Under the pieces are notes generated by a model. That model had not been told where the DNA came from, did no database searches, and was given only the letters and a program-made list of their open reading frames with translations. Below, in pieces: positions 7,836 to 62,013 of a stretch of 64,000 nucleotides of DNA (the stretch's first letter is position 1; each line of letters starts with the position of its first letter). The position numbers were made by a program, and so were the translations under genes. Source of the DNA: Niallia circulans (GTDB lineage Bacteria; Bacillota; Bacilli; Bacillales; Cytobacillaceae); contig NZ_RIBP01000001.1 in NCBI RefSeq assembly GCF_007273535.1, forward strand, positions 62,001 through 126,000, given 5' to 3'.

Positions 7836-8020
7836 TCAATAAAAACGTAAAAAAAAGGATTTGCGAAGAAAAGTAACGATATAGTAACCGTACTGTAATT
7901 CATTGCAGTATAAATAGTTTATAAAATGGATGAATATAGCAGTTGAAGAAGTAAATCGAATGATACAGACAATTGTTGGTAATATTAAGTAGAGAGTTAG
8001 CCAGAGGAGAAGGATAATTT

Positions 8021-9277
8021 ATGCCACATCAAAGGTTCCAGTCAGCTAATATAAAACCTCGCTATACAAAGGGCTTAATTTCAGCATTAGGAGTAAACTC
8101 GGCATATCCTCGAATCCCTTGGATTGCCGCATGGTGGTCTGCAGCCTTCCCGGGTTTTGGTCATATGTTTTTAGGGAAATATCTACAAGGATTTATTTTG
8201 ATCATGTGGGAGCTTGTTGTTAATAGTCAAGCTAATTTAAATAAGGGTATTGCTTTATCGATGCTTGGCAGGTTTGAAGAAGCCAAAATACAGATAAACG
8301 AAGACTGGTTTTTACTATATATGGCAGTGTATGTATATAGTATTTGGGACAGTTATCGCAGTGCTGTTGAGGTCGCTAAAAGTCATGTTTTAGCAGAAGT
8401 GGAGGATGCGCCAGTAACACCCTCGGAAGTAACTTTTTTCGATGTTGTTATTCTTGATAAAAAGAACCCTTGGGTAGGTGCTGTTTGGTCCATTTTGTCT
8501 CCAGGTCTTGGGCAATTATATGCTGGTAGTACTGTTGTTGGAACACTTGTTTTAGCCTGGTGGATATATGTTGCATATAAAGCAGAGGCTGTTCGAATGT
8601 GGCTTTATTCTTTCCTCGGTGATTTTAATACAGTAGTAGAAATAGTTGATTGGCAATGGTTTCTGTTTATGCCTTCCATGTACGCCTTTGCTATTTACCA
8701 GGCATATACAGCTGTCATTGAAAGTAATACACTTTACGATATTGAGCAAATGCGTTACTTAAGAGTGAGGGATGAGAACTTGTCACAGCAAAAAACATTT
8801 GCGACCAACAAAGTCCAAATAATAGCAACGTTTGAACACTCGCCATTTGTAGAAATCGTTATTCACGAAATGGCGAAGATAGGGGTGCCACAGGAGAATA
8901 TAGTGGCAATGCCATTAGAAAATCTTAAAGCACCAACTCATATTCTTGATTCCCTTCATAGTGTTGATGGCAGAAGTCTACTGGACGGAGCAATGCTTGG
9001 AGGAACAATTGGAATGGTTTTAGGATCAATATACGGATTTGTTTTATACTTAGGACCAATAATTTGGGGACTGCTTGGGCTTGTCGGCGGTTTTTTACTT
9101 GGTCTGTTAATTGAAATAGCCCTTAATAAAGGGAAATTAAAACTCTTCGCCCCCAAAAAAAGCGAGGTCATCATACAGGTAACATGCAATGACACGCTTC
9201 AGGAACAACTGATTAAAATCCTTAAATCACGGAAAGCGATGGGGTATTTAATTGTTCCGCAACGGATAGATATTTAG
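8021..9277 (+). CDS. Membrane protein of unknown function with duplicated N-terminal module
   Basis: 418 residues, not recognised as a named gene. The first 240 residues hold two related blocks: each starts with a short W-rich helix and a Pro-Gly turn (AAFPGFGHMFLGKY; ILSPGLGQLYAGS), followed by a second membrane helix and a segment ending WFL(L/F)-Y-A-Y. The PGxGxxxxG pattern resembles TM2-type small membrane modules. The C-terminal part has a soluble ACT-like stretch (VQIIATFEHSPFVEIVIHEM), two glycine-rich helices (about 325-365) and a second soluble strand region. GAGGAGAAGG precedes ATG 8021. It forms a single-gene unit with its own terminator. Confidence 0.75.
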   Translation: MPHQRFQSANIKPRYTKGLISALGVNSAYPRIPWIAAWWSAAFPGFGHMFLGKYLQGFILIMWELVVNSQANLNKGIALSMLGRFEEAKIQINEDWFLLYMAVYVYSIWDSYRSAVEVAKSHVLAEVEDAPVTPSEVTFFDVVILDKKNPWVGAVWSILSPGLGQLYAGSTVVGTLVLAWWIYVAYKAEAVRMWLYSFLGDFNTVVEIVDWQWFLFMPSMYAFAIYQAYTAVIESNTLYDIEQMRYLRVRDENLSQQKTFATNKVQIIATFEHSPFVEIVIHEMAKIGVPQENIVAMPLENLKAPTHILDSLHSVDGRSLLDGAMLGGTIGMVLGSIYGFVLYLGPIIWGLLGLVGGFLLGLLIEIALNKGKLKLFAPKKSEVIIQVTCNDTLQEQLIKILKSRKAMGYLIVPQRIDI

Positions 9278-52386: not shown

Positions 52387-52415
52387 AATTCATTAAATGA
52401 GTGGAGGAAAATGAA

Positions 52416-53354
52416 ATGAGCAAAAAAACAATGGGAATTCACCATATTACAGCAATTGTCGGGCATCCACAGGAAAACGTTGATTTTTATGCAGGTGTAT
52501 TGGGATTAAGATTAGTGAAACAAACGGTTAATTTCGATGACCCTGGAACATATCACCTTTATTTCGGTAATGAAGGCGGCAAGCCTGGGACAATTATTAC
52601 GTTTTTCCCTTGGGCAGGAGCAAGGCAAGGAGTGGTTGGAGATGGTCAAGTAGGTGTCACTTCCTATGCTGTGCCAGTGGGAGCATTAAGTTTCTGGGAA
52701 GAAAGATTAGAAAAGTTCAATATTCCTTATGAAAAAGCAGAGCGCTTCGGAGAAGTTTATCTTGAATTTAGTGACCCGCATGGCCTTCAGCTTCAGTTAG
52801 TTGAAAGAGCAAGCGGAGAAGTAAATACTTGGACATTCGGCAATGTGACTTCAGATGTGGCAATTAAAGGTTTCGGTGGTGCAACGTTGTTGTCTGCACA
52901 ACCAGAAAAAACGGCTGAATTGTTAGAGCATGTGATGGGACTTGAAGTAGTCGGACAAGAAGACAATATTATCCGATTCCGTTCAACAGCTGATATCGGT
53001 AATATTATTGATCTAAAAACAACAACTATTGGCAGAGGTGAAATGGGAGTCGGGACTGTTCATCATATTGCTTGGCGTGCTACTGATGATGCAGATCAAT
53101 TAGATTGGCAGGAATATATCGCAGACAAAGGATATGGTGTAACAGCAGTTCGTGACAGAAACTACTTTAATGCTATCTACTTTAGAGAGCATGGAGAGAT
53201 ATTATTTGAAATTGCTACAGATCCTCCAGGTTTTGCTCATGATGAAACGCTTGAAACAATGGGAACAAACTTGAAGCTGCCAGCGCAATATGAGCAGCAT
53301 CGTGCACAGCTTGAAAAAGTCCTTATCCCAATTGAAGTAAAACAGCTAGATTAA
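52416..53354 (+). CDS. Ring-cleaving dioxygenase, MhqA/MhqO/MhqE type
   Basis: 312 residues made of two VOC modules. The N-terminal IHHITAIVGHPQENVDFYAG and the second-module VGTVHHIAWRATDD and ILFEIATDPPGF give the His/His/Glu iron ligands of extradiol dioxygenases. In B. subtilis these enzymes are induced by quinones and catechols and relieve electrophile stress. ATG 52416 is preceded by GTGGAGG. First gene of the cluster, behind the MhqR-type boxes. Confidence 0.9.
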   Translation: MSKKTMGIHHITAIVGHPQENVDFYAGVLGLRLVKQTVNFDDPGTYHLYFGNEGGKPGTIITFFPWAGARQGVVGDGQVGVTSYAVPVGALSFWEERLEKFNIPYEKAERFGEVYLEFSDPHGLQLQLVERASGEVNTWTFGNVTSDVAIKGFGGATLLSAQPEKTAELLEHVMGLEVVGQEDNIIRFRSTADIGNIIDLKTTTIGRGEMGVGTVHHIAWRATDDADQLDWQEYIADKGYGVTAVRDRNYFNAIYFREHGEILFEIATDPPGFAHDETLETMGTNLKLPAQYEQHRAQLEKVLIPIEVKQLD

Positions 53355-53442
53355 CTGTGTGAAGCCATAATAATATGGCTTCACCGGAAGATTTATTTAA
53401 ATCATAAAAAAAAATGAAGAAATAATAGAGGAGAAGATGAAA

Positions 53443-53832
53443 ATGGAAGATTTAGGTTTATTGTTAATTCGAGTAATGGTTGGGATTGTGTTTATGTTTT
53501 ATGGATCACAGAAGCTGTTCGGAATATTTGGTGGACACGGCATAAAAGGAACAGGCGGCTGGTTTGAGTCTATTGGTGTGAAACCAGGGGTACCTGCAGC
53601 AGTATTGAGCGGTCTTGGCGAGTTTATAAGTGGGATTTTGTTTATTATCGGTTTATTTTTACCTTTGGCAGCAGCAATCATAACGATCATTATGGCTGGA
53701 GCAATTGTAAAGGTTCATGGTTCGAAGGGATTTGCCAATGGTGCAGGCGGTTATGAATATAATTTAATGCTTATTGTTGTGGCAATGGGAATGGCATTAG
53801 TTGGACCAGGAGCATTTGCATTAGGCCTATAA
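53443..53832 (+). CDS. DoxX-family membrane protein (MhqP-like)
   Basis: About 129 residues with four membrane helices; [15 protein letters not shown] and [16 protein letters not shown] are typical of DoxX proteins. ATG 53443 is nine bases after GAGGAG; ATG 53437 is also possible but only three bases away. MhqP of B. subtilis is the same kind of protein and lies beside a dioxygenase gene, as here. Its exact role in quinone resistance is not settled. Confidence 0.87.
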
Positions 53833-53855
53833 GAAAATAAGTAGAGACACGGATA

Positions 53856-53884
53856 TTGACCTTTATCTAGGTAGATGTTATAAT
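53856..53884 (+). promoter_or_regulatory. Promoter of the second dioxygenase gene
   Basis: TTGACC (53856-53861), 17-bp spacer, TATAAT (53879-53884). Confidence 0.75.
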
Positions 53885-53940
53885 TATCACGAATTAAAGA
53901 TATCTTAATTAAAAATAAAAAAAATATATTTTTTCGCTCA

Positions 53941-53958
53941 TATCTCGAAATCGAGATA
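53941..53958. promoter_or_regulatory. MhqR-type box, nearly perfect
   Basis: TATCTCGAAATCGAGATA is an 18-bp palindrome with a single central mismatch, just before the ribosome binding site of the 53978 gene. It resembles the published B. subtilis MhqR operator (from memory). Confidence 0.8.
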
Positions 53959-53977
53959 ATAATAGGAGGACTCTTCC

Positions 53978-54961
53978 ATGAATGAATTAAAAGGACTTCA
54001 TCACATTACAGCAATTACAAGCAGCGCTGAAAAAATTTATGAATTTTTCACTAATGTTTTAGGATTAAGACTAGTGAAAAAAACAGTTAATCAAGATGAC
54101 ATCCAAACATATCATTTATACTTCACAGATGATGTTGGCAGTCCTGGTACAGACATGACGTTTTTCGATTTTCCAGGTATCCCAAAAGGAGTGCACGGCA
54201 CGAATGAAATTTCGAAAACCTCCTTCCGTGTGCCGACAGACGCAGCTCTGGCATATTGGGTAAAACGCTTTGACAAATACGATGTAAAGCATAAAGGCAT
54301 TCAAGAGCAATTTGGTAAAAAGACGTTATCATTTGTCGATTTTGACGATCAGCAGTACCAGTTAATATCAGATGAAAAAAATGAAGGAGTTGCAGCGGGT
54401 ACGCCGTGGCAAAATGGTCCAGTACCATTAGAGTTTGCGATAACTGGTTTAGGACCGATTTTCGTGCGAACATCTTATTTTGATTACTTTAAAGAAGTAT
54501 TAGAGAAAGTGTTCCTTATGAAGGAGTTAGGTCAAGAAGATTCCTTCCATCTATTTGAAATGGGTGAAGGTGGTAATGGGGCACAAGTAATCGTGGAATT
54601 CAATAACATTCTTCCACAAGCTCGCCAAGGTTTCGGTACAGTTCACCATGCTGCATTCCGCGTGGCAGATCGCGCTGAACTGGATGAGTGGACAAATCGC
54701 TTATCAAGCTTCCAATTACCAAATTCAGGTTTTGTGGAGCGCTACTATTTCGGCTCCTTATACTCTAATGTGGCACCACAAGTATTATTTGAATTGGCAA
54801 CAGATGGACCAGGATTCATGGGTGATGAGCCTTATGAAACCCTTGGAGAAAAATTAGCACTACCGCCATTCTTTGAATCAAAACGGGAGGAGATTGAGCA
54901 GCTTGTCCGCCCGATCAACACTGTTCGCAGCACTCTAAAAATAGACAAAGAATATTTGTAA
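53978..54961 (+). CDS. Ring-cleaving dioxygenase, MhqO type
   Basis: 327 residues, two VOC modules. LHHITAITSSAEKIYEFFTN opens the first; GFGTVHHAAFRVADR and VLFELATDGPGF in the second carry the His and Glu metal ligands. AGGAGGA precedes ATG. It is a diverged paralogue of the 52416 product, and each has its own promoter and MhqR-type box. The FMN reductase gene follows 18 bases later. Confidence 0.9.
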   Translation: MNELKGLHHITAITSSAEKIYEFFTNVLGLRLVKKTVNQDDIQTYHLYFTDDVGSPGTDMTFFDFPGIPKGVHGTNEISKTSFRVPTDAALAYWVKRFDKYDVKHKGIQEQFGKKTLSFVDFDDQQYQLISDEKNEGVAAGTPWQNGPVPLEFAITGLGPIFVRTSYFDYFKEVLEKVFLMKELGQEDSFHLFEMGEGGNGAQVIVEFNNILPQARQGFGTVHHAAFRVADRAELDEWTNRLSSFQLPNSGFVERYYFGSLYSNVAPQVLFELATDGPGFMGDEPYETLGEKLALPPFFESKREEIEQLVRPINTVRSTLKIDKEYL

Positions 54962-54979
54962 TAAAAGGGGATTATGTTA

Positions 54980-55576
54980 ATGGGTTTTTTCAGTAAACTA
55001 TTTGGAACAAAACAAGAGGAGGAACAAACAATGGAAAAATTAAATATCGGTATTATACTTGGATCAACTAGAGAAGGACGTGTAAGTCCACAGGTTGGCG
55101 CATGGGTGAAGGAATTAGCAGACAAACGCGGTGATGCAAACTATACAGTTATTGATATCGCTGATTATAAATTGCCATTTTTAGGTGAGCCGGGAGCGGA
55201 TGCTTCAGGAGCTGCTGCTTGGTCTGAAATTATCGCCAAACAGGACGGTTTCGTATTTATCGTGCAAGAATACAACCACTCTATAACAGCAGCGCTGAAA
55301 AATGCTTTAGATTTCCTTCGTGATGAATGGAATAACAAAGCTGCAGGAATCGTATCCTACGGTTCAGTTGGAGGAGCTCGTGCAGCAGAGCATTTGCGCG
55401 GAATACTTGGAGAATTGCTAGTGGCTGACGTTCGAGTACACCCAGCATTGTCTTTATTCACTGATTTTGAAAATGGTACAGAATTCAAGCCGAAAGAAGT
55501 CCAAGCAGAGTCAGTTAACCAAATGCTAGACCAAGTAATCCCATGGTCAACAGCATTGAAAACTATCCGTAAATAA
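54980..55576 (+). CDS. NADPH-dependent FMN reductase (flavodoxin-like quinone/azo reductase)
   Basis: Flavodoxin-like fold: IGIILGSTREGRVSPQVG binds the FMN phosphate and VQEYNHSITAALKNALDF is conserved in the family. Two starts are supported: ATG 54980 (nine bases after AAAGGGG) gives an amphipathic lead GFFSKLFGTKQEEEQ, while ATG 55031 is preceded by a stronger AGAGGAGG and gives a 181-residue core enzyme. It probably reduces quinones by two electrons, in keeping with its place in the quinone-response cluster. Confidence 0.88.
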   Translation: MGFFSKLFGTKQEEEQTMEKLNIGIILGSTREGRVSPQVGAWVKELADKRGDANYTVIDIADYKLPFLGEPGADASGAAAWSEIIAKQDGFVFIVQEYNHSITAALKNALDFLRDEWNNKAAGIVSYGSVGGARAAEHLRGILGELLVADVRVHPALSLFTDFENGTEFKPKEVQAESVNQMLDQVIPWSTALKTIRK

Positions 55577-55707: not shown

Positions 55708-57081
55708 TTAAAATCGAGAATGAACTCTTTCCCCTTGTACCCAAACTTCTTTAATGTTTTCTGGACGAACAAGGTAAATTATTTTTTGAAAAATGTCATC
55801 TAAAGCTTCATGAGCATCAAAAATAGGAAGCTTAGCTGATGGCATTTTTGTATCAATAATTTGGACGTCCCACGTATAATTTTCTTCTAATTTTCCAATA
55901 GGCAGGCTTAAGCTTTCACCACCGCCAGCAGTAGCTAAGTAAAAGGCTTCATGAATAGAAATGCGAGAATCTGCCACTCCTCGTTCTTCAGCGGCAAGAG
56001 CAGTACTGACACCATCCTCGAGCATCCTTGACGAAACCACTGCTTGTTTGGCATTGTCGTAAATACTTGGAGTTGCTCCTGCTGAAATATCTGTTCCAAG
56101 GCCAATGTCGATTCCCATCGCTTGCAATCTTTTTAACGGTAATACACTGTTGGCAAAGTAGGCGTTTGAAAGTGGACAATGGCTTATGGCTGTTCCAGTG
56201 CTAGCGAATAATTCAGCATCCTTGTCATCGAGGAAATTACTATGAGCCATAACAGATTTATCGCCTAACAATCCGAAATCATGAAGTGCGAAAGCATCAT
56301 TTTTCTTAAATCTATCCTTCACATATTGATGAGCCCAATCACTTTCACTGCAATGGGACTGGATATGAGTATCGTATTTAGCAGCAAGCTCACCAAGCCC
56401 TTGCAATGCTTCATCTGAACAGCTCGGAATAAAACGCGGCGTAACAACAGGGTAGACACCTTGCTTTACTTCTCTAGCTAAGTCCTTCATTGCAAGGATA
56501 AATTCCTCCGTATCTTTTATAGCTGTTATTGGATTTGCATCTCGGTAGTAGTCTGGATTTTGGTCTGGATCATCCATTACTACTTTACCAACAAGGCCAC
56601 GTTGTCCTTTTTTAGCGCAAATTTCTGCTAATAATAAGCTTGCTTCCTTGTGGACTGTCGCAAAATAGAGGACAGTGGTGGTCCCGTTGGCGAGTAAGGT
56701 ACTAACTAAATCCTCATACACCGTTTTGGCGAATGCCAAATCTGCATATTTTGCTTCAAGCGGGAATGTATAGGTATGCAGCCAATCATACAGCGGAAGA
56801 TCAAGAGCAGTACCTGATTGGGCCCATTGCGGGGCGTGAACATGTAAGTCGACAAAACCAGGTAAGAAATATTGTCCTTCTTCTAATTGACGAAAGTTCG
56901 CATCCTCTTTATGTTTGGCAATAAGAGAAGTGTATTCCTCCTGTTCAGGGCTAACAACCTTTTCAATCATCCCGTTGCTATTTACAAAGAACAAATGATT
57001 TTCCATAATAGTTACTTTTTTAGGAGAGTAACTGCTAAATGCAGTACCATGAAAAATATACGTATAATTAATAATAAACAC
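55708..57081 (-). CDS. guaD: Guanine deaminase (amidohydrolase family)
   Basis: 457 residues, amidohydrolase barrel. LPGFVDLHVHAPQ (metal His pair and the APQ typical of guanine deaminase), TPRFIPSCSDE, QSHCSESDWAH, and GTDISAG supply the zinc and base-binding residues. It converts guanine to xanthine. No ATG is available at the right place: GTG 57081 directly follows AGGAAG, and an ATT a few codons on is an alternative; ATG 57006 would delete the first strands. It is divergent from the riboswitch-controlled permease. Confidence 0.92.
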   Translation of the reverse strand: MFIINYTYIFHGTAFSSYSPKKVTIMENHLFFVNSNGMIEKVVSPEQEEYTSLIAKHKEDANFRQLEEGQYFLPGFVDLHVHAPQWAQSGTALDLPLYDWLHTYTFPLEAKYADLAFAKTVYEDLVSTLLANGTTTVLYFATVHKEASLLLAEICAKKGQRGLVGKVVMDDPDQNPDYYRDANPITAIKDTEEFILAMKDLAREVKQGVYPVVTPRFIPSCSDEALQGLGELAAKYDTHIQSHCSESDWAHQYVKDRFKKNDAFALHDFGLLGDKSVMAHSNFLDDKDAELFASTGTAISHCPLSNAYFANSVLPLKRLQAMGIDIGLGTDISAGATPSIYDNAKQAVVSSRMLEDGVSTALAAEERGVADSRISIHEAFYLATAGGGESLSLPIGKLEENYTWDVQIIDTKMPSAKLPIFDAHEALDDIFQKIIYLVRPENIKEVWVQGERVHSRF

Positions 57082-57207
57082 CTTCCTATAGTTCGTGTTT
57101 TGTGGTAATATAAATATTGTAATAGATGATTAGTAGCTAGTCTACATGAAATCAGATAGTTTTACTAGATTTTAAAAATTTAGAAAAAACTATTTTCGAA
57201 AAATATC

Positions 57208-57235
57208 TTGCACTAAAAAAAAATCGTGGTATTGT
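57208..57235 (+). promoter_or_regulatory. Promoter of the riboswitch-controlled operon
   Basis: TTGCAC (57208-57213), 16-bp spacer, TATTGT (57230-57235), about 25 bases before the aptamer. Confidence 0.6.
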
Positions 57236-57258
57236 AGTAAAAAACAAAACTAAATAGT

Positions 57259-57333
57259 GTTTTTCATATAATCGTGGGGATATGGCCTACAAGTTTCTAC
57301 CTGTTTACCGTAAATAAACTGACTATGAAAAGC
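57259..57333 (+). ncRNA. Guanine-class purine riboswitch aptamer
   Basis: The conserved purine aptamer is clear: P1 TTTTCATA / TATGAAAA, then ATAATCG, P2 GTGGG-GATATGG-CCTAC, the joining strand AAGTTTCTACC, P3 with loop ACCGTAAA, and GACTATG. The specificity base (position 74 of xpt) is C at 57323, so guanine or hypoxanthine is the ligand. With ligand bound, the terminator at 57388 would form. Confidence 0.95.
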
Positions 57334-57387
57334 AAAAAGAATGGCTTACTGATATAGGTCTATTCTTTTTGATACTTTGAATCTATA

Positions 57388-57446
57388 AAGCTCGAAGTAC
57401 ATGCTTTTCTGTTGGTGGGAAAAGTATGTACTTCGAGCTTTTTTAA
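57388..57446 (+). terminator. Riboswitch expression-platform terminator
   Basis: A 22-bp stem, AAGCTCGAAGTACATGC... (57388-57409) with its complement at 57419-57440, ends in TTTTTT. An alternative stem (AAAAAGAAT with ATTCTTTTT, 57335-57370) lies between aptamer and terminator. Confidence 0.9.
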
Positions 57447-57503
57447 GTTGGTAGAAACTATTGATTATATGAATGTCTAGTAACCTACAGGGGGAATGGG
57501 AGA

Positions 57504-58850
57504 ATGGCAAAAGGTATGAAAGAGAATAGGACGACGGAAGAAAAAGAAAATATTTCCGTTGGCAAGTCGATATTTCTAGGTTTACAGCAGGTTTTAGCAA
57601 TGGATTTATTTATACCGCCGATCATCTTGGCAGGTTTACTTTCGTTTTCTGTAGCAGATAGTGCTTTGTTGATTCAAATGACATTTATTGCTTGTGGTAT
57701 TGCCACAATTATTCAAGCAGGATTTGCAATGAGGCTTCCTGTCATGCAAGGGCCGTCATTTGTGCCATTGAGTGCATTGGCAGCAATTGGCACAACATCA
57801 GGTATTGGGGCGATGATTGGCAGCTTAATACCAGGTGCGTTAATCGTTGCTTTATTAGGTTATCCACTTAAGGTTTATAGTAAGGTTGTTAGAAAAATCA
57901 TTCCACCAATCGTTGCAGGAACTGTGATTGTGGTTGTTGGCCTTTCATTAATGCCAAGTGCGATTAATTCTATTTATTCAGCAGAAGGTAGCTTTGGAGA
58001 GAACATCCTTATTGCTACAATTACAGCTGCTATTCTTATATTTTGTATGTATGTTGGCGAAAAAGCGAAATCCAAATGGAAATATATTAAAGTTGTGTCC
58101 GTTGTATTAGCACTTATTATCGGTTCCATTATTGCTTCTTTCTTTGGTTTAGTACATTTTGATTCGCTTAAGACAGCTGCATGGTTCCAAATGCCAGGTC
58201 TATTTTCTTTCGGTATGCCTGAGTTTAATCTCCATGCCATTATCGTAATGATCGTTGTTTACCTTATTGTCACTATAGAAACTACCGGAACTTGGTTTAC
58301 TGTAAGTAAAGTAACTGGCGAAGAGCTAGATGACAAGCGTTTAAATGGTGGAGCACTTGGTGAAGGGTTAGGCTGTTTTGTTGGTTCCTTCTTTGGAGGA
58401 ACACCGGTAACAGGTTATTCTTCTAATGCTGGAATTATCGCAATAACTGGAGTGAAAAGCCGTAAACCAATTATTGTAGGTGGAGTTATATTAGTTTTAC
58501 TTGGTATGATGCCAAAGCTTACAAGCTTAATCGCATGTATTCCTAGTGTGGTTGTGAATAGCGTTTTTGCAATTTTATGTGTAGTTATCATGATGAATGG
58601 CTTTAAAGTTATTAAAGATGAAGCATTCACTGAAAGAAATATGCTTGTTATTGGTGTGCCAATTATGCTTGCATTATTCGCTGTATTAATGCCTGCAGAC
58701 GTTTTAGCAGGATTGCCAGAAATCGTTACTTATTTTGTATCATCTGGAACAGCTATTGGTGCGATTGCTGCATTGGTTCTGAACTTAGTGTTACCACAGA
58801 AAAAAGACGATAAAGTCAAAGTTAATGATGTTTCCATGAACGTAAACTAA
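57504..58850 (+). CDS. NCS2-family purine permease
   Basis: 448 residues, about 14 helices. The NCS2 block with Gln-Gly-Pro is in LPVMQGPSFVPL, and the transport-domain block GGTPVTGYSSNAGIIAITGV is conserved; it is closest to xanthine/uric-acid permeases. A GGGGGAATGGGAG site lies before ATG 57504. Expression is under the guanine riboswitch, so the cargo should be a purine. The Rieske oxygenase follows 24 bases later in the same transcript. Confidence 0.93.
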   Translation: MAKGMKENRTTEEKENISVGKSIFLGLQQVLAMDLFIPPIILAGLLSFSVADSALLIQMTFIACGIATIIQAGFAMRLPVMQGPSFVPLSALAAIGTTSGIGAMIGSLIPGALIVALLGYPLKVYSKVVRKIIPPIVAGTVIVVVGLSLMPSAINSIYSAEGSFGENILIATITAAILIFCMYVGEKAKSKWKYIKVVSVVLALIIGSIIASFFGLVHFDSLKTAAWFQMPGLFSFGMPEFNLHAIIVMIVVYLIVTIETTGTWFTVSKVTGEELDDKRLNGGALGEGLGCFVGSFFGGTPVTGYSSNAGIIAITGVKSRKPIIVGGVILVLLGMMPKLTSLIACIPSVVVNSVFAILCVVIMMNGFKVIKDEAFTERNMLVIGVPIMLALFAVLMPADVLAGLPEIVTYFVSSGTAIGAIAALVLNLVLPQKKDDKVKVNDVSMNVN

Positions 58851-58874
58851 GAAGAAAAGAGGAGAGTCAACACT

Positions 58875-59864
58875 ATGCAACAGGATAGACTATGGAATGA
58901 ATGGCATCCAGTATGTAAAGCAGAGGAGTTATTGGAAGATCCAAAACAGGTATTCGTGCTTGGCGAAAGAGTCGCTATTTTCCGCAATGAAAAGGGAGTT
59001 CATGCTTTTAAGGATTTATGTATCCACCGTGGCGCCGCCCTTTCCCTAGGAAAGGTGAAAAACGGGAAGTTAGTGTGTGCCTATCATGCATGGGAATATG
59101 ATTGTGTTGGCGCATGTGTGAAGATACCTGCCCTTCCAAATGGCAGAGCGATTCCAAAAAAGGCTAAAGCAACTGTTTATCATTGTGAAGAACATCTTGG
59201 ATTGATCTGGGTGAACTTAGGCGATAATCCTGCTCCCCTTATTTCTTATCCAGAATACAATATGGAAAATCATCGGACTGTTATTTGTGGTCCTTATGAT
59301 GTAAATGCAAATGCACCAAGAATAATTGAGAACTTTCTGGATGTGTCACATCTTATGTTCGTACATGAAGGCCTGCTTGGTGACGAGGATCATGCGGAAA
59401 TAGTTGATTATAAGGTGGATTTTATCGATAATCGCTATATTACAAGCAAGATTCCTGTTTACCAGCCAAATCCAGATGGTCGTTCAAAAGGCGGATATGC
59501 AGACTATGTATACGAAATCTTAAACCCAACAACAGCTCGTTTTACGAAAACATCTGAAGGCTCTGATGATGCATTAACGATTTTGCTAGTTGTTAATCAA
59601 GCGGGTAACGAACAATCACAGGCTTATATGCTGTTATCAAGAAACTATGACTTGGATATGCCTGACGAACCATTTGTTGAATTCCAAGATACGATTTTCT
59701 ATCAGGATCTTGATATTGTACAAAGTCAAAAACCAGAACTGCTTCCGTTAGATTTACAAGCAGAATTACATCTTAAATCAGATGCGCTAACAATTGCATA
59801 TCGCAGATGGTTAAATCAATTGGGTGTTGAGAATGGAACTACACCAGTATTAGAGAGAGTGTGA
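58875..59864 (+). CDS. Rieske non-heme iron oxygenase (ring-hydroxylating or demethylating alpha subunit)
   Basis: 329 residues. The Rieske cluster ligands are C-x-H in CIHRGAALS and C-x2-H in CAYHAWEYD (about residues 48-72). The mononuclear iron site is in NFLDVSHLMFVHEG (about 155-168). The length fits the short one-component alpha type such as VanA or the methylxanthine demethylases. AAGAGGAG precedes ATG. It shares a guanine-riboswitch transcript with a purine permease and faces guanine deaminase, so a purine substrate is the best guess. No reductase gene is present here. Confidence 0.9.
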   Translation: MQQDRLWNEWHPVCKAEELLEDPKQVFVLGERVAIFRNEKGVHAFKDLCIHRGAALSLGKVKNGKLVCAYHAWEYDCVGACVKIPALPNGRAIPKKAKATVYHCEEHLGLIWVNLGDNPAPLISYPEYNMENHRTVICGPYDVNANAPRIIENFLDVSHLMFVHEGLLGDEDHAEIVDYKVDFIDNRYITSKIPVYQPNPDGRSKGGYADYVYEILNPTTARFTKTSEGSDDALTILLVVNQAGNEQSQAYMLLSRNYDLDMPDEPFVEFQDTIFYQDLDIVQSQKPELLPLDLQAELHLKSDALTIAYRRWLNQLGVENGTTPVLERV

Positions 59865-59890
59865 GCACGGGGTTACCCGTGCTTTTTTTT
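59864..59890 (+). terminator. Terminator of the purine permease/oxygenase operon
   Basis: GCACGGG (59865-59871), GTTA loop, CCCGTGC (59876-59882), eight T residues. Confidence 0.92.
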
Positions 59891-60133
59891 GTTGTTCGGG
59901 GTGGGTGGAAAGCGAGTGTTCATAATCGAAATGAAATGAACTATTTTTAAAAACAAACTCTAATTTTAATCCCAAGCTTCATTGTTTCAAAGTTAGGGAA
60001 TCATTTAAATTTCTTGTTTAGTTAGGTTATATCTTGTTTTGTCCCAACCTGTTTACGACACAACAGATAAAAATGTACAAGCACTCATTTTAATACTGAA
60101 TACCATATATGAAGTTGATGGAAAAAGAGTGTG

Positions 60134-60988
60134 ATGAAAATGAATAAACGAACAAGGACTAATTCTGCCTCAAACCCTAGTACAACAACCCAGCCTGGCT
60201 TACAGGCAACGTCAAGCTACACTGTCAACATAGCAGTTATTGGAGACAGTCATGTAGGCTACTTGAACAGCCAAAGTATTTTTAATAACTTTCTTCCAAG
60301 GGCGATAAATAGTGGGACGAAAAGATATGTTATTTTTGGCGGGGACAATGCCCATGCATTAGGAGCTTTTACAACAGCAGAGGCGCGAAGCTATTATCAG
60401 CAGTTTAAAAATATTGTTGATCATAATTTGGGACCGAAAAATATCTATTACCGCACATCTATAGGGAACTGGGAGGATACGAGCAGAAATGATAGCAGAA
60501 GTTTATTTCTGCAATATTTTAACCCATTAACAGGCAGAGTAAGTATTCCAAGAACAAGAGGGTTAGTGCAGCATGTTTGGCTTGATAATGGGACTGGAAC
60601 ATTCAGCCAAGACAGTATTAATCTATTAAATAGTTTAGATCCTAATCATTACTATATTATTGATACGCATTGGCCCCTTTATGTACCGGGGATATATAAT
60701 ACGGTAAGCTCAGATCATGTTGTGAGCAGACAAGAAACAGACCGGTTTTTTAATGCAATCCCAGCCAACGTGAGAAGCAGAATCCTTGGTATCTTCACAC
60801 ATCATGCCCATGTTTTTTATTCAAAGCTAACAAATATTCATGCTAACTTTCCGAATACGCCATTTTTTGTGACTGGTTGTTCTGGTGATTACAAATGCTC
60901 GTCGTTTGAAAGTGGCTACTATGATGCAGATATAAGCATCCAGAGTAATAATCAAGCATCATTACAGGTGAGAAAAGTGATACTGTAA
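60134..60988 (+). CDS. Calcineurin-like phosphoesterase-fold protein with altered motif
   Basis: About 284 residues. The motifs of metallophosphoesterases can be followed: GDSHVG (usual GDxH), GGDNAH (usual GDxxD), GNWED (usual GNHE), DTHWP and THHAHVF. The His of the GNH(D/E) block is Trp, which should affect the active site. The N-terminus is Ser/Thr/Asn-rich without a signal peptide. The binding site is weak and three close starts exist (60131, 60134, 60140). Substrate unknown; single gene. The 269 bases upstream show nothing else. Confidence 0.7.
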   Translation: MKMNKRTRTNSASNPSTTTQPGLQATSSYTVNIAVIGDSHVGYLNSQSIFNNFLPRAINSGTKRYVIFGGDNAHALGAFTTAEARSYYQQFKNIVDHNLGPKNIYYRTSIGNWEDTSRNDSRSLFLQYFNPLTGRVSIPRTRGLVQHVWLDNGTGTFSQDSINLLNSLDPNHYYIIDTHWPLYVPGIYNTVSSDHVVSRQETDRFFNAIPANVRSRILGIFTHHAHVFYSKLTNIHANFPNTPFFVTGCSGDYKCSSFESGYYDADISIQSNNQASLQVRKVIL

Positions 60989-61076: not shown

Positions 61077-61080
61077 GAAC

Positions 61081-61147
61081 GGATTGTAACTGTTAAATCA
61101 GGCAAAACCGATTACCTTATTTTTAAAGGGTGGGTTTTGCCTTTTTC
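61081..61147 (+). promoter_or_regulatory. RAT antiterminator target and overlapping terminator before the BglG-type gene
   Basis: GGATTGTAACTG...TCAGGCAAAACC (61081-61109) matches the LicT/SacY ribonucleic antiterminator. Its right part AGGCAAAACC also pairs with GGTTTTGCCT (61133-61142) to make a terminator with a T-tract, so the two forms exclude each other. Confidence 0.9.
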
Positions 61148-61170: not shown

Positions 61171-62013
61171 GTGAAAATCGAAAAAATATTAAACAACAAT
61201 GCGGTTATCTCAATAAAAGATAATCAAGAAATTATTATCATTGGTCGTGGGATAGCTTTTCAAAAGCGAGCTGGTGATCAGATTGCCGAGGACCAAATTG
61301 ATAAAATTTTCACTTTAGAAAACGAAGATATGAGGACGAATTTCAAAACCTTGATAGCTGATATGCCGATTGAATATATGCAATTATCAGAGAAGATTAT
61401 TGCTTATGCAAAGATGAAGCTTGGTAAGAAATTAAACGAAAGCATTTATATTCATTTAACAGACCATATTTATTATGCGGTGGATCGCTTTAGGAACCAT
61501 CTTCCAATAAAAAATGGATTGCTTTGGGAAATAAGACAACTGTATCGAGATGAGTATGAGGTAGGTCTTGAAGCATTGAATATGATTTGTGATCAATTTG
61601 GTGTAATCTTGCCAGAGGATGAAGCAGGATTTTTGGCACTTCACTTCATCAATGCAGAATTGAATGAAGAGATGCCAGTTGTACATGATATGACAAAAAT
61701 CATGCAGGAAATCTTAACACTTGTCAGGTATCACTTTAAGATTGATTTTAATGAAAATTCTCTGCATTTCTATCGCTTTATTACCCATCTTAAGTTTTTT
61801 GCGCAGCGTTTAGTGAAAGGTAATCACTATAACAGCTCAACAGATGACGATTTATATCAAGTAATTCAAATGAAATACCCTGATGCACATACATGTGCGC
61901 TGAAAATAAAGAAATTTATTGAAAGCATGTATACGTATGTGTTAACAGACGAAGAAATGATCTATTTAACCATTCATATAGAACGAGTTGTTAAAAGCAA
62001 TAATGACAAATAG
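61171..62013 (+). CDS. BglG/LicT-family transcriptional antiterminator
   Basis: 280 residues: an RNA-binding CAT domain (1-55; IEKILNNNAVISIKDNQEI) and two PRD domains (about 65-170 and 172-278) with the regulatory His residues in HLTDHIYYAVDR, HFINAEL and TIHIERV. It binds RAT hairpins when the cognate sugar is present. The GTG start follows GGAGGGT. It controls its own leader and that of the PTS gene downstream. Confidence 0.93.
   Translation: MKIEKILNNNAVISIKDNQEIIIIGRGIAFQKRAGDQIAEDQIDKIFTLENEDMRTNFKTLIADMPIEYMQLSEKIIAYAKMKLGKKLNESIYIHLTDHIYYAVDRFRNHLPIKNGLLWEIRQLYRDEYEVGLEALNMICDQFGVILPEDEAGFLALHFINAELNEEMPVVHDMTKIMQEILTLVRYHFKIDFNENSLHFYRFITHLKFFAQRLVKGNHYNSSTDDDLYQVIQMKYPDAHTCALKIKKFIESMYTYVLTDEEMIYLTIHIERVVKSNNDK

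Follow-up and report, generated by a model that had tools for sequence, protein, structure and literature searches.

A guanine riboswitch operon in Niallia circulans that couples an unusual NCS2 permease with a Rieske oxygenase: a possible route of modified-purine salvage

The subject of this work is an operon in a 64,000-nucleotide stretch of Niallia circulans DNA (positions 62,001 to 126,000 of contig NZ_RIBP01000001.1; hereafter the window, whose first letter is position 1), in which a guanine-type riboswitch with its terminator precedes the genes for an NCS2 permease and, 24 bases further on, a Rieske oxygenase, and from which a guanine deaminase gene diverges. The operon, in which an importer of an unusual purine permease type is paired with an iron oxygenase, is predicted to be switched off by guanine and is common to many soil-dwelling and salt-tolerant relatives of Bacillus. 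Its anatomy had been recognized in a sequence-only reading of the window, and the aptamer, both terminators, the two genes of the operon and the divergent deaminase have all been confirmed by family models, folding or direct reading. That reading overlooked the PurBox-like element, the altered motif of the permease and the precedents set by hpxDE and by the xanthine-I/-II riboswitches located before dioxygenase genes. The features are, in the order of their coordinates:

55708..57081, minus strand: guanine deaminase (gde/guaD), TIGR02967 equivalog, divergent from the operon; start codon uncertain
57087..57101, minus strand: PurBox-like element AAAACACGAACTATA, located in the leader of the deaminase gene
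57244..57345, plus strand: guanine-type purine riboswitch aptamer (RF00167), C74 = C57323
57327..57333, plus strand: P1 3' strand GAAAAGC, the antiterminator half, with an alternative fold with 57403-57409
57387..57444, plus strand: intrinsic terminator found by folding (24-bp stem, 7-nt loop, T-run)
57504..58850, plus strand: NCS2 permease (PF00860, 255 bits), related to PbuX, of a separate subfamily
58875..59864, plus strand: one-component Rieske oxygenase subunit (PF00355, 78.7 bits, and VanA_C PF19112, 80.2 bits)
59865..59890, plus strand: terminator-like hairpin GCACGGGGTTACCCGTGC with T-run at the operon end, by direct sequence reading

The leader matches RF00167 with 85.8 bits against a gathering threshold of 37, and its J3/1 segment, GACTA, carries the C at position 57323 that places the aptamer core in the guanine (C74) class. 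The J2/3 segment, GUUUCUACC, aligns without insertions, and the hallmarks of the xanthine-II variant, given in PMC9295807 as U51G together with insertions in J2/3 and J3/1, are absent. The terminator arms (57387-57410 and 57418-57441, followed by the T-run) lie within a leader (57258-57460) that folds with -71.6 kcal/mol, z -7.9 with respect to shuffled sequences. Once the 5' part of the aptamer is removed from the fold, GAAAAGC (57327-57333) pairs with GCTTTTC (57403-57409) in the 5' arm of the terminator. Because the P1 3' strand can thus pair into the terminator, aptamer closure competes with antitermination, as in an OFF switch, and the leader is predicted to respond to guanine by lowering expression. 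Position 74 is C in all 22 other leaders read (L053 not included), two of which have GGCTA instead of GACTA. According to a coarse script, 19 of these 22 contain a hairpin followed by a T-run (none was found in L033, L036 and L037), and the pairing of P1 inside a terminator arm was flagged in 7 of 19.

A scan of genomes returned 25 related loci: 23 full-length close ones, L054 and L055. The window and the 23 full-length loci (74-98% identity, 14 genus names) constitute the close set of 24 loci, in all members of which the permease gene lies immediately 5' of the oxygenase gene on the same strand. An Rfam purine riboswitch was found approximately 1.6-2.1 kb upstream of the oxygenase in each of the 18 close loci scanned, and it adjoins the operon in 10 of 10 genomes. 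As to the check proposed in the sequence-only reading, purine riboswitches and NCS2 permeases do recur beside the close homologues, and the window clade was not found in aromatic-demethylation operons devoid of purine genes. A riboswitch scan of L002-L020 gave no match; for L002-L010 it covered 1.5 kb 5' of the oxygenase, short of the riboswitch position. Permease and oxygenase genes are separated by 2-30 nt in 15 of the 24 loci and overlap by 14 nt in 6, with longer spacers in L040 (95 nt), L043 (202 nt) and L044 (129 nt). In 19 of the 24 loci the operon is flanked by a divergent guanine deaminase gene, which is missing from this place in L046-L049 and L051 (Allobacillus, Alkalibacillus). L054, a 39% relative, is without the permease, while L055 of Cytobacillus firmus (8001-8204) is a remnant that retains just 68 C-terminal residues of the oxygenase and has neither deaminase nor permease; since the outer neighbours of L055 match those of L034, the module has apparently been lost as a unit. 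In Salirhabdus, a second purine riboswitch (L039:4756-4857) is located just 5' of the module, before a gene for a BMP/PnrA-like binding protein. The broader notion that purine genes accompany all relatives of the oxygenase was rejected: in L054, L067, L078 and L138 the small number of genes that were scanned or annotated includes no clear purine neighbour, and L139 and L140 have none by annotation.

We regard the window permease as a representative of a distinct NCS2 subfamily. It scores 370.2 bits with the PbuX model TIGR03173, under the cut-off of 414.15, and the PbuX protein of the same genome scores 561.5; in the NAT motif it has YSSNAG, compared to YSQNVG in that PbuX. The form Y-S-S/T-N-A-G is common to all 28 permeases of the group, 24 from the close loci and 4 from a sister clade of NCS2-linked oxygenases (the L077 permease, which is of the Q type, was grouped by clustering but left out of the 28). 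The Q/E-N-x-G signature of NAT/NCS2 proteins is thus broken at position 4 by S or T, with the N, the G and the Glu of the ETTG stretch kept, and the NCS2 proteins encoded in the NdmAB and hpx clusters still have Gln at this position. According to PMC5972032, NAT residue 4 is of key importance for the nucleobase specificity of characterised members.

Window-type permeases, defined by a threshold of our choice (E<=1e-100), occur in 15 of 101 genomes. This set coincides exactly with the genomes that encode an oxygenase either of the window clade (10) or of the sister clade that the tree defines as NCS2-linked (5: G027, G031, G038, G050 and G060); genomes or places with short broken matches (G003, G004 at its second place, G044 and G056) were excluded from the carriers. 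The Fisher value for this co-occurrence, 3e-18, ignores shared ancestry and refers to groups chosen after the matches had been seen. In G060 the permease and the oxygenase are encoded on separate contigs, and the permease still contains SSNAG. It could be argued that the riboswitch serves the permease alone and that the oxygenase, being the second gene, is a mere passenger with an unrelated substrate, the more so as none of the 14 regions with sister-clade or HpxD-like loci that were scanned contains a purine riboswitch. However, the genomes with the permease subfamily are exactly those with one of two oxygenase clades, even where the genes are unlinked, and the single transcription unit has short overlaps in six loci; such an explanation is very improbable.

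The oxygenase possesses the [2Fe-2S] ligands (CxH/CxxH: C49, H51, C68 and H71) and the 2-His-1-carboxylate ligands (H159, H164 and D278) of a Rieske oxygenase of the VanA_C type. The positions C49-x-H51...C68-x2-H71 and N153/D156/H159/H164/D278 are invariant in 37 family rows. By sequence, its nearest relatives in the PDB are SxtDIOX (180 bits), SxtT (167), NdmA (147) and NdmB (120). A tree was computed for 46 proteins, from which seven close rows of the window clade and one outgroup row had been removed; bootstrap convergence was incomplete (0.985), long branches were flagged and the deep order is weakly supported. In this tree, the window clade, a clade linked to BMP-type importers and the NCS2-linked clade each obtained 100/100. 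HpxD groups with the Bacillales proteins L072_7 and L077_7 (54 and 51% identity to HpxD) in a separate 100/100 clade, outside which falls the window protein (32% identity to HpxD), and NdmA and NdmB likewise stand apart from the window clade. Thus, the kinship to methylxanthine N-demethylases suggested earlier holds in that NdmA and NdmB are sequence relatives of a well-supported, purine-linked clade, but not in the sense of membership in the NdmA/NdmB clade, nor in that of HpxD. The positions aligned with the NdmA active site were not diagnostic for the window oxygenase. The genes of the HpxD orthologues in Bacillales are located at L072:8524-9576 and L077:9457-10500.

The sister clades are associated with a variety of transporters. 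Genes for BMP-type ABC importers were found in all five members of one clade (in L064 by Pfam; in L066, L071, L073 and L076 by clustering) and, by annotation, in the cyanobacterial relative L137; the best PDB matches of the L064 binding protein are 6pi5, an entry that bears the name atrazine periplasmic binding protein (363 bits), and, at 350 bits, the basic membrane lipoprotein 3s99. A divergent NCS2 permease is present in 4 of the 5 members of the NCS2-linked clade, of which only the genome G060 encodes 2-oxo-4-hydroxy-4-carboxy-5-ureidoimidazoline (OHCU) decarboxylase. In L074 and L075, an NMT1-type ABC importer lies 5' of the oxygenase, and the neighbours include OHCU decarboxylase, PucR, an M20 amidohydrolase and an allantoinase-type amidohydrolase (L074 by Pfam, L075 by clustering), with 5-hydroxyisourate (HIU) hydrolase additionally in L074. 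The L064 oxygenase is encoded approximately 10-14 kb from the genes for uricase, OHCU decarboxylase and a PF02738 protein. Because the BMP- and NMT1-linked sisters track OHCU decarboxylase, a catabolic role is possible for them, whether or not the window clade has one. Between the HIU hydrolase and OHCU decarboxylase genes of L074 there is also a 488-aa FAD oxidoreductase (L074:11071-12537; no NCBIfam name at 1e-20), a candidate urate-oxidising enzyme in a genome without a match to PF01014 uricase. In the genome G024 the gene order of L072 is HpxD orthologue, thioredoxin reductase-like (TrxR-like) reductase, sister oxygenase and AzgA/PbuG-like permease, and the presence of HpxD next to it suggests that the sister does something other than xanthine hydroxylation. 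The same genome has no PF02738 match and keeps OHCU decarboxylase; HpxD may replace xanthine dehydrogenase there.

A different picture emerges from 27 genomes that carry the window clade, 10 from the set of relatives and 17 further ones (two Cytobacillus gottheilii strains are among them, L048 and the remnant L055 were left out, and G118 and G012 are the same record). Uricase is found in none of them, OHCU decarboxylase in 9 (7 of the window's genus and 2 of Robertmurraya) and a PF02738 protein in 13, the latter number being an upper bound for xanthine dehydrogenase, as other molybdenum hydroxylases also match; the absences are softer in the 17 further carriers, for which completeness is not given and among which L052 is a metagenome-assembled genome. 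All three proteins are missing from G031, G038 and G050, which combine the NCS2-linked sister oxygenase with the window-type permease. Given this profile, a urate-producing enzyme would be a dead end in many carriers, barring other urate-degrading enzymes, for which no search was made. Complete xanthine-to-urate catabolism as the purpose of the window clade was downgraded on these grounds, which do not extend to the sister clades. Of the oxidative purine route switched off by guanine that had been suggested for the operon, the purine context (24 of 24 loci) and the guanine-OFF folds stand, while the degradative version is weakened for the window clade.

The same evidence bears on the possibility that the window oxygenase acts like HpxD, i.e. 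as a molybdenum-free xanthine or hypoxanthine hydroxylase that replaces xanthine dehydrogenase, with the deaminase supplying xanthine and the permease importing it. HpxD, annotated as a molybdenum cofactor-independent xanthine hydroxylase, is indeed a relative, xanthine is the product of guanine deaminase, 14 of the 27 carriers have no PF02738 protein, and the BMP- and NMT1-linked sisters keep company with OHCU decarboxylase, three sisters being in or near urate-pathway clusters. On the other hand, the clade of HpxD holds two other Bacillales proteins and excludes that of the window, the 27 carriers are without uricase and 18 of them without OHCU decarboxylase, and Niallia has elsewhere a separate cluster with a PF02738 protein and OHCU decarboxylase (L129; the other genes there were read by eye). 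Moreover, control by a guanine-OFF switch has the wrong sign for a purine-destroying enzyme. We consider an HpxD-like function unlikely.

The guanine deaminase passes the TIGR02967 cut-off (419.6 vs 375.4 bits), and a AAAAYACGAACRTTA-like motif is present in 18 of 19 deaminase leaders, L052 being without it; this element resembles the PurBox consensus. Genes of the PurR regulon carry paired PurBoxes in inverted orientation; the window deaminase leader has one conserved element without a clear partner box, and the pbuG-like gene of the same genome is preceded by paired copies. The motif appears also in the presumed purE leader and is not clear in the xpt-pbuX and guaA leaders of this genome. 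A strict PurBox-like pattern occurs 39 times in 1.09 Mb of loci (both strands, these leaders included), and the deaminase-less L046, L048 and L049 have loose GTTCG matches upstream of the riboswitch. Other purine riboswitches of the genome precede xpt-pbuX, the pbuG-like gene and guaA (by reading of translated starts), one with U74 (adenine type) precedes an MFS gene, and one further is located before an unread gene, presumably purE as guessed from its position. Another one, with an altered L2 loop and AGCTA in J3/1 (L134:7824-7923, minus strand), lies before the gene for 5'-deoxyadenosine deaminase (NF005557, 720 bits); this protein and PbuX are the riboswitch neighbours that were tested against family models. 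With a guanine riboswitch on the operon and a PurBox-like element at the deaminase, both arms look like members of a purine-shortage programme.

As to the supply of electrons, no dedicated reductase was found in the window locus, in agreement with the earlier suggestion that the partner is encoded elsewhere. The genome has three PF00175 proteins (404, 616 and 290 aa), which judged by length are not of the VanB/HpxE type and are presumably of the Hmp, CysJ and PyrK types. It also encodes a protein 72% identical to the TrxR-like reductase (presumably of the YumC type) whose gene lies between the two Rieske genes in G024, and because of this relative we infer that a shared TrxR-like reductase is the likely electron source for the window oxygenase. 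In more distant relatives, on Rhodococcus and Pantoea plasmids, a PDR/VanB-type reductase is encoded next door.

Taken together, these data lead us to propose that the operon is a purine-scavenging module, which imports a modified purine and de-modifies it oxidatively, most likely by N-demethylation, to a usable purine; we assign to this reading a probability of about 0.4. According to this scenario, low guanine would allow read-through transcription, and the NCS2 permease with its altered specificity residue would import a purine base that is a poor substrate for ordinary permeases of the PbuX type. With electrons from a housekeeping ferredoxin and the TrxR-like reductase, the Rieske oxygenase would then strip off the modification (probably an N-methyl group, which would leave as formaldehyde), and the resulting normal purine (xanthine or guanine) would be salvaged by Xpt/Hpt. 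Guanine deaminase, apparently under PurR, would work on the same pool, perhaps converting methylguanine to methylxanthine first. We favour an N-methyl group since two activities are known among the characterised relatives that act on purines, demethylation (NdmA/B) and xanthine hydroxylation (HpxD), of which the second is disfavoured for the window clade. Salvage is favoured by the guanine-OFF control combined with the urate-gene profile, and we count in its support the company of riboswitch-controlled genes of salvage and synthesis (xpt-pbuX, pbuG-like, guaA), the adjacency and exact co-occurrence of permease and oxygenase with the altered NAT residue 4, and the presence of NdmA/NdmB among the sequence relatives. 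The computations establish the anatomy, the C74 aptamer, the alternative folds, the conservation, the co-inheritance of permease and oxygenase, the PurBox-like element and the lack of urate genes in many carriers, whereas we infer the substrate, the reaction, the electron partners and the action of PurR.

Several observations weigh against this scenario. The window oxygenase is only 33% identical to NdmA and 29% to NdmB and lies outside their clade. Among the neighbours, not all of which were scanned for families, we recognised no recurring gene for the handling of formaldehyde. OHCU decarboxylase is encoded in all five genomes of the BMP-linked clade and in both with the NMT1-type importer (L074/L075), and the sister oxygenases of L064, L074 and L075 are in or near urate-pathway clusters. 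The window-type permease is missing from six genomes (G004, G021, G024, G025, G058 and G079) that encode full-length sister oxygenases belonging to other clades. The conversion of guanine to xanthine during purine shortage is not obviously useful, unless the substrate of the deaminase is itself modified. Finally, Lys225 is invariant in all 37 family rows and is found also in 5 relatives at a greater distance, but HpxD and NdmA/B have Ile/Val in its place. This lysine could instead indicate another heterocycle as the substrate, such as an O6- or N6-alkyl purine, a cytokinin, an N-alkyl triazine or a deazapurine, from which purine or nitrogen would be freed. The altered NAT motif of the permease agrees with this idea, as do the nearest PDB matches, SxtT and SxtDIOX, which act on other guanidinium heterocycles, and the atrazine periplasmic binding protein nearest to that of L064. 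However, guanine control suggests a product that enters the guanine pool; we regard this alternative as rather improbable.

Oxidative salvage of modified purines would have both parallels and differences among known systems. The hpx cluster of Klebsiella pneumoniae likewise contains a Rieske oxygenase and an NCS2 permease among purine genes; however, HpxD has its partner HpxE adjacent, in a cluster with uraH, uraD and hpxO, whereas the window oxygenase belongs to another clade, has no adjacent reductase and is found mostly (18 of 27 carriers) in genomes without OHCU decarboxylase. The ndm cluster of Pseudomonas putida (L143) also includes an NCS2 permease, but it keeps the NAT Gln that the window permease does not, and neither an NdmD-type reductase nor a formaldehyde dehydrogenase was seen beside the window oxygenase, which again is of another clade. 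The xpt-pbuX and pbuG operons of Bacillus have a guanine aptamer and a terminator before an NCS2-type purine permease; the window operon differs by the additional oxygenase and by the permease subfamily with the altered NAT motif. Purine sensing upstream of oxygenase or purine genes is also known from the xanthine-I (NMT1) and xanthine-II riboswitches, as described in PMC7373994, which links the former to dioxygenase genes, and of PMC9295807, in which the latter, with its U51G change, is described as consistent with an ON switch and precedes a dioxygenase in Paenibacillus. The window, however, has a canonical guanine aptamer with the oxygenase as the second gene, and NMT1 is a different structure. 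Thus, Rieske purine enzymes (HpxD, NdmA/B) and links between riboswitches and dioxygenases are already known. A search of open-access texts for a guanine riboswitch in connection with a Rieske protein returned only PMC7373994. Within the reach of such searches, no description was found of this oxygenase clade in combination with a canonical guanine-OFF switch and an NCS2 permease of altered motif.

Purine salvage in Bacillus is viewed as a matter of transport, deamination and phosphoribosyl transfer. We tentatively suggest, with less assurance than would be needed to call it probable, a novel salvage route of Bacillaceae, in which an oxygenase restores modified purines taken up by an NCS2 transporter of new specificity, under the joint control of a guanine riboswitch and PurR. 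If this is true, an oxygenase under a guanine-OFF switch would add the repair of modified bases, e.g. those from RNA turnover or plant alkaloids. The module offers a transporter subfamily in which a specificity residue is changed and whose substrate is accessible to assay, as well as a purine-linked Rieske clade distinct from those of HpxD and NdmA/B. It also gives a hint of which reductase such Rieske enzymes use in Bacillota. Gene lists that count only the first gene after a riboswitch, such as the figure of variant classes in PMC9295807, would miss the oxygenase.

The surroundings of the module deserve brief mention. At 52401-55576 there is an operon-like run of genes, two for glyoxalase/VOC proteins and one each for a DoxX protein and an FMN reductase, which resembles the mhq quinone-detoxification genes of Bacillus; similar VOC proteins are encoded near the sister oxygenases in L065 and L067. 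On the other side, 60131-60988 encodes a 285-aa protein without a Pfam/NCBIfam match at E 0.001, which by eye looks like a calcineurin-type phosphoesterase, and 61171-62013 encodes a LicT-type antiterminator (NF046042, 380 bits), preceded at ~61080-61130 by a hairpin-like stretch that by eye has the look of a ribonucleic antiterminator (RAT) site. The contig of the window (G000:C3) has 1,456,738 bases. The oxygenase of Niallia taxi is 97.9% identical to that of the window, and the orthologue of Niallia taxi NBC_Nia is located on a replicon deposited as a 1.44-Mb plasmid, pMEGANia, so the module may reside on a megaplasmid or chromid.

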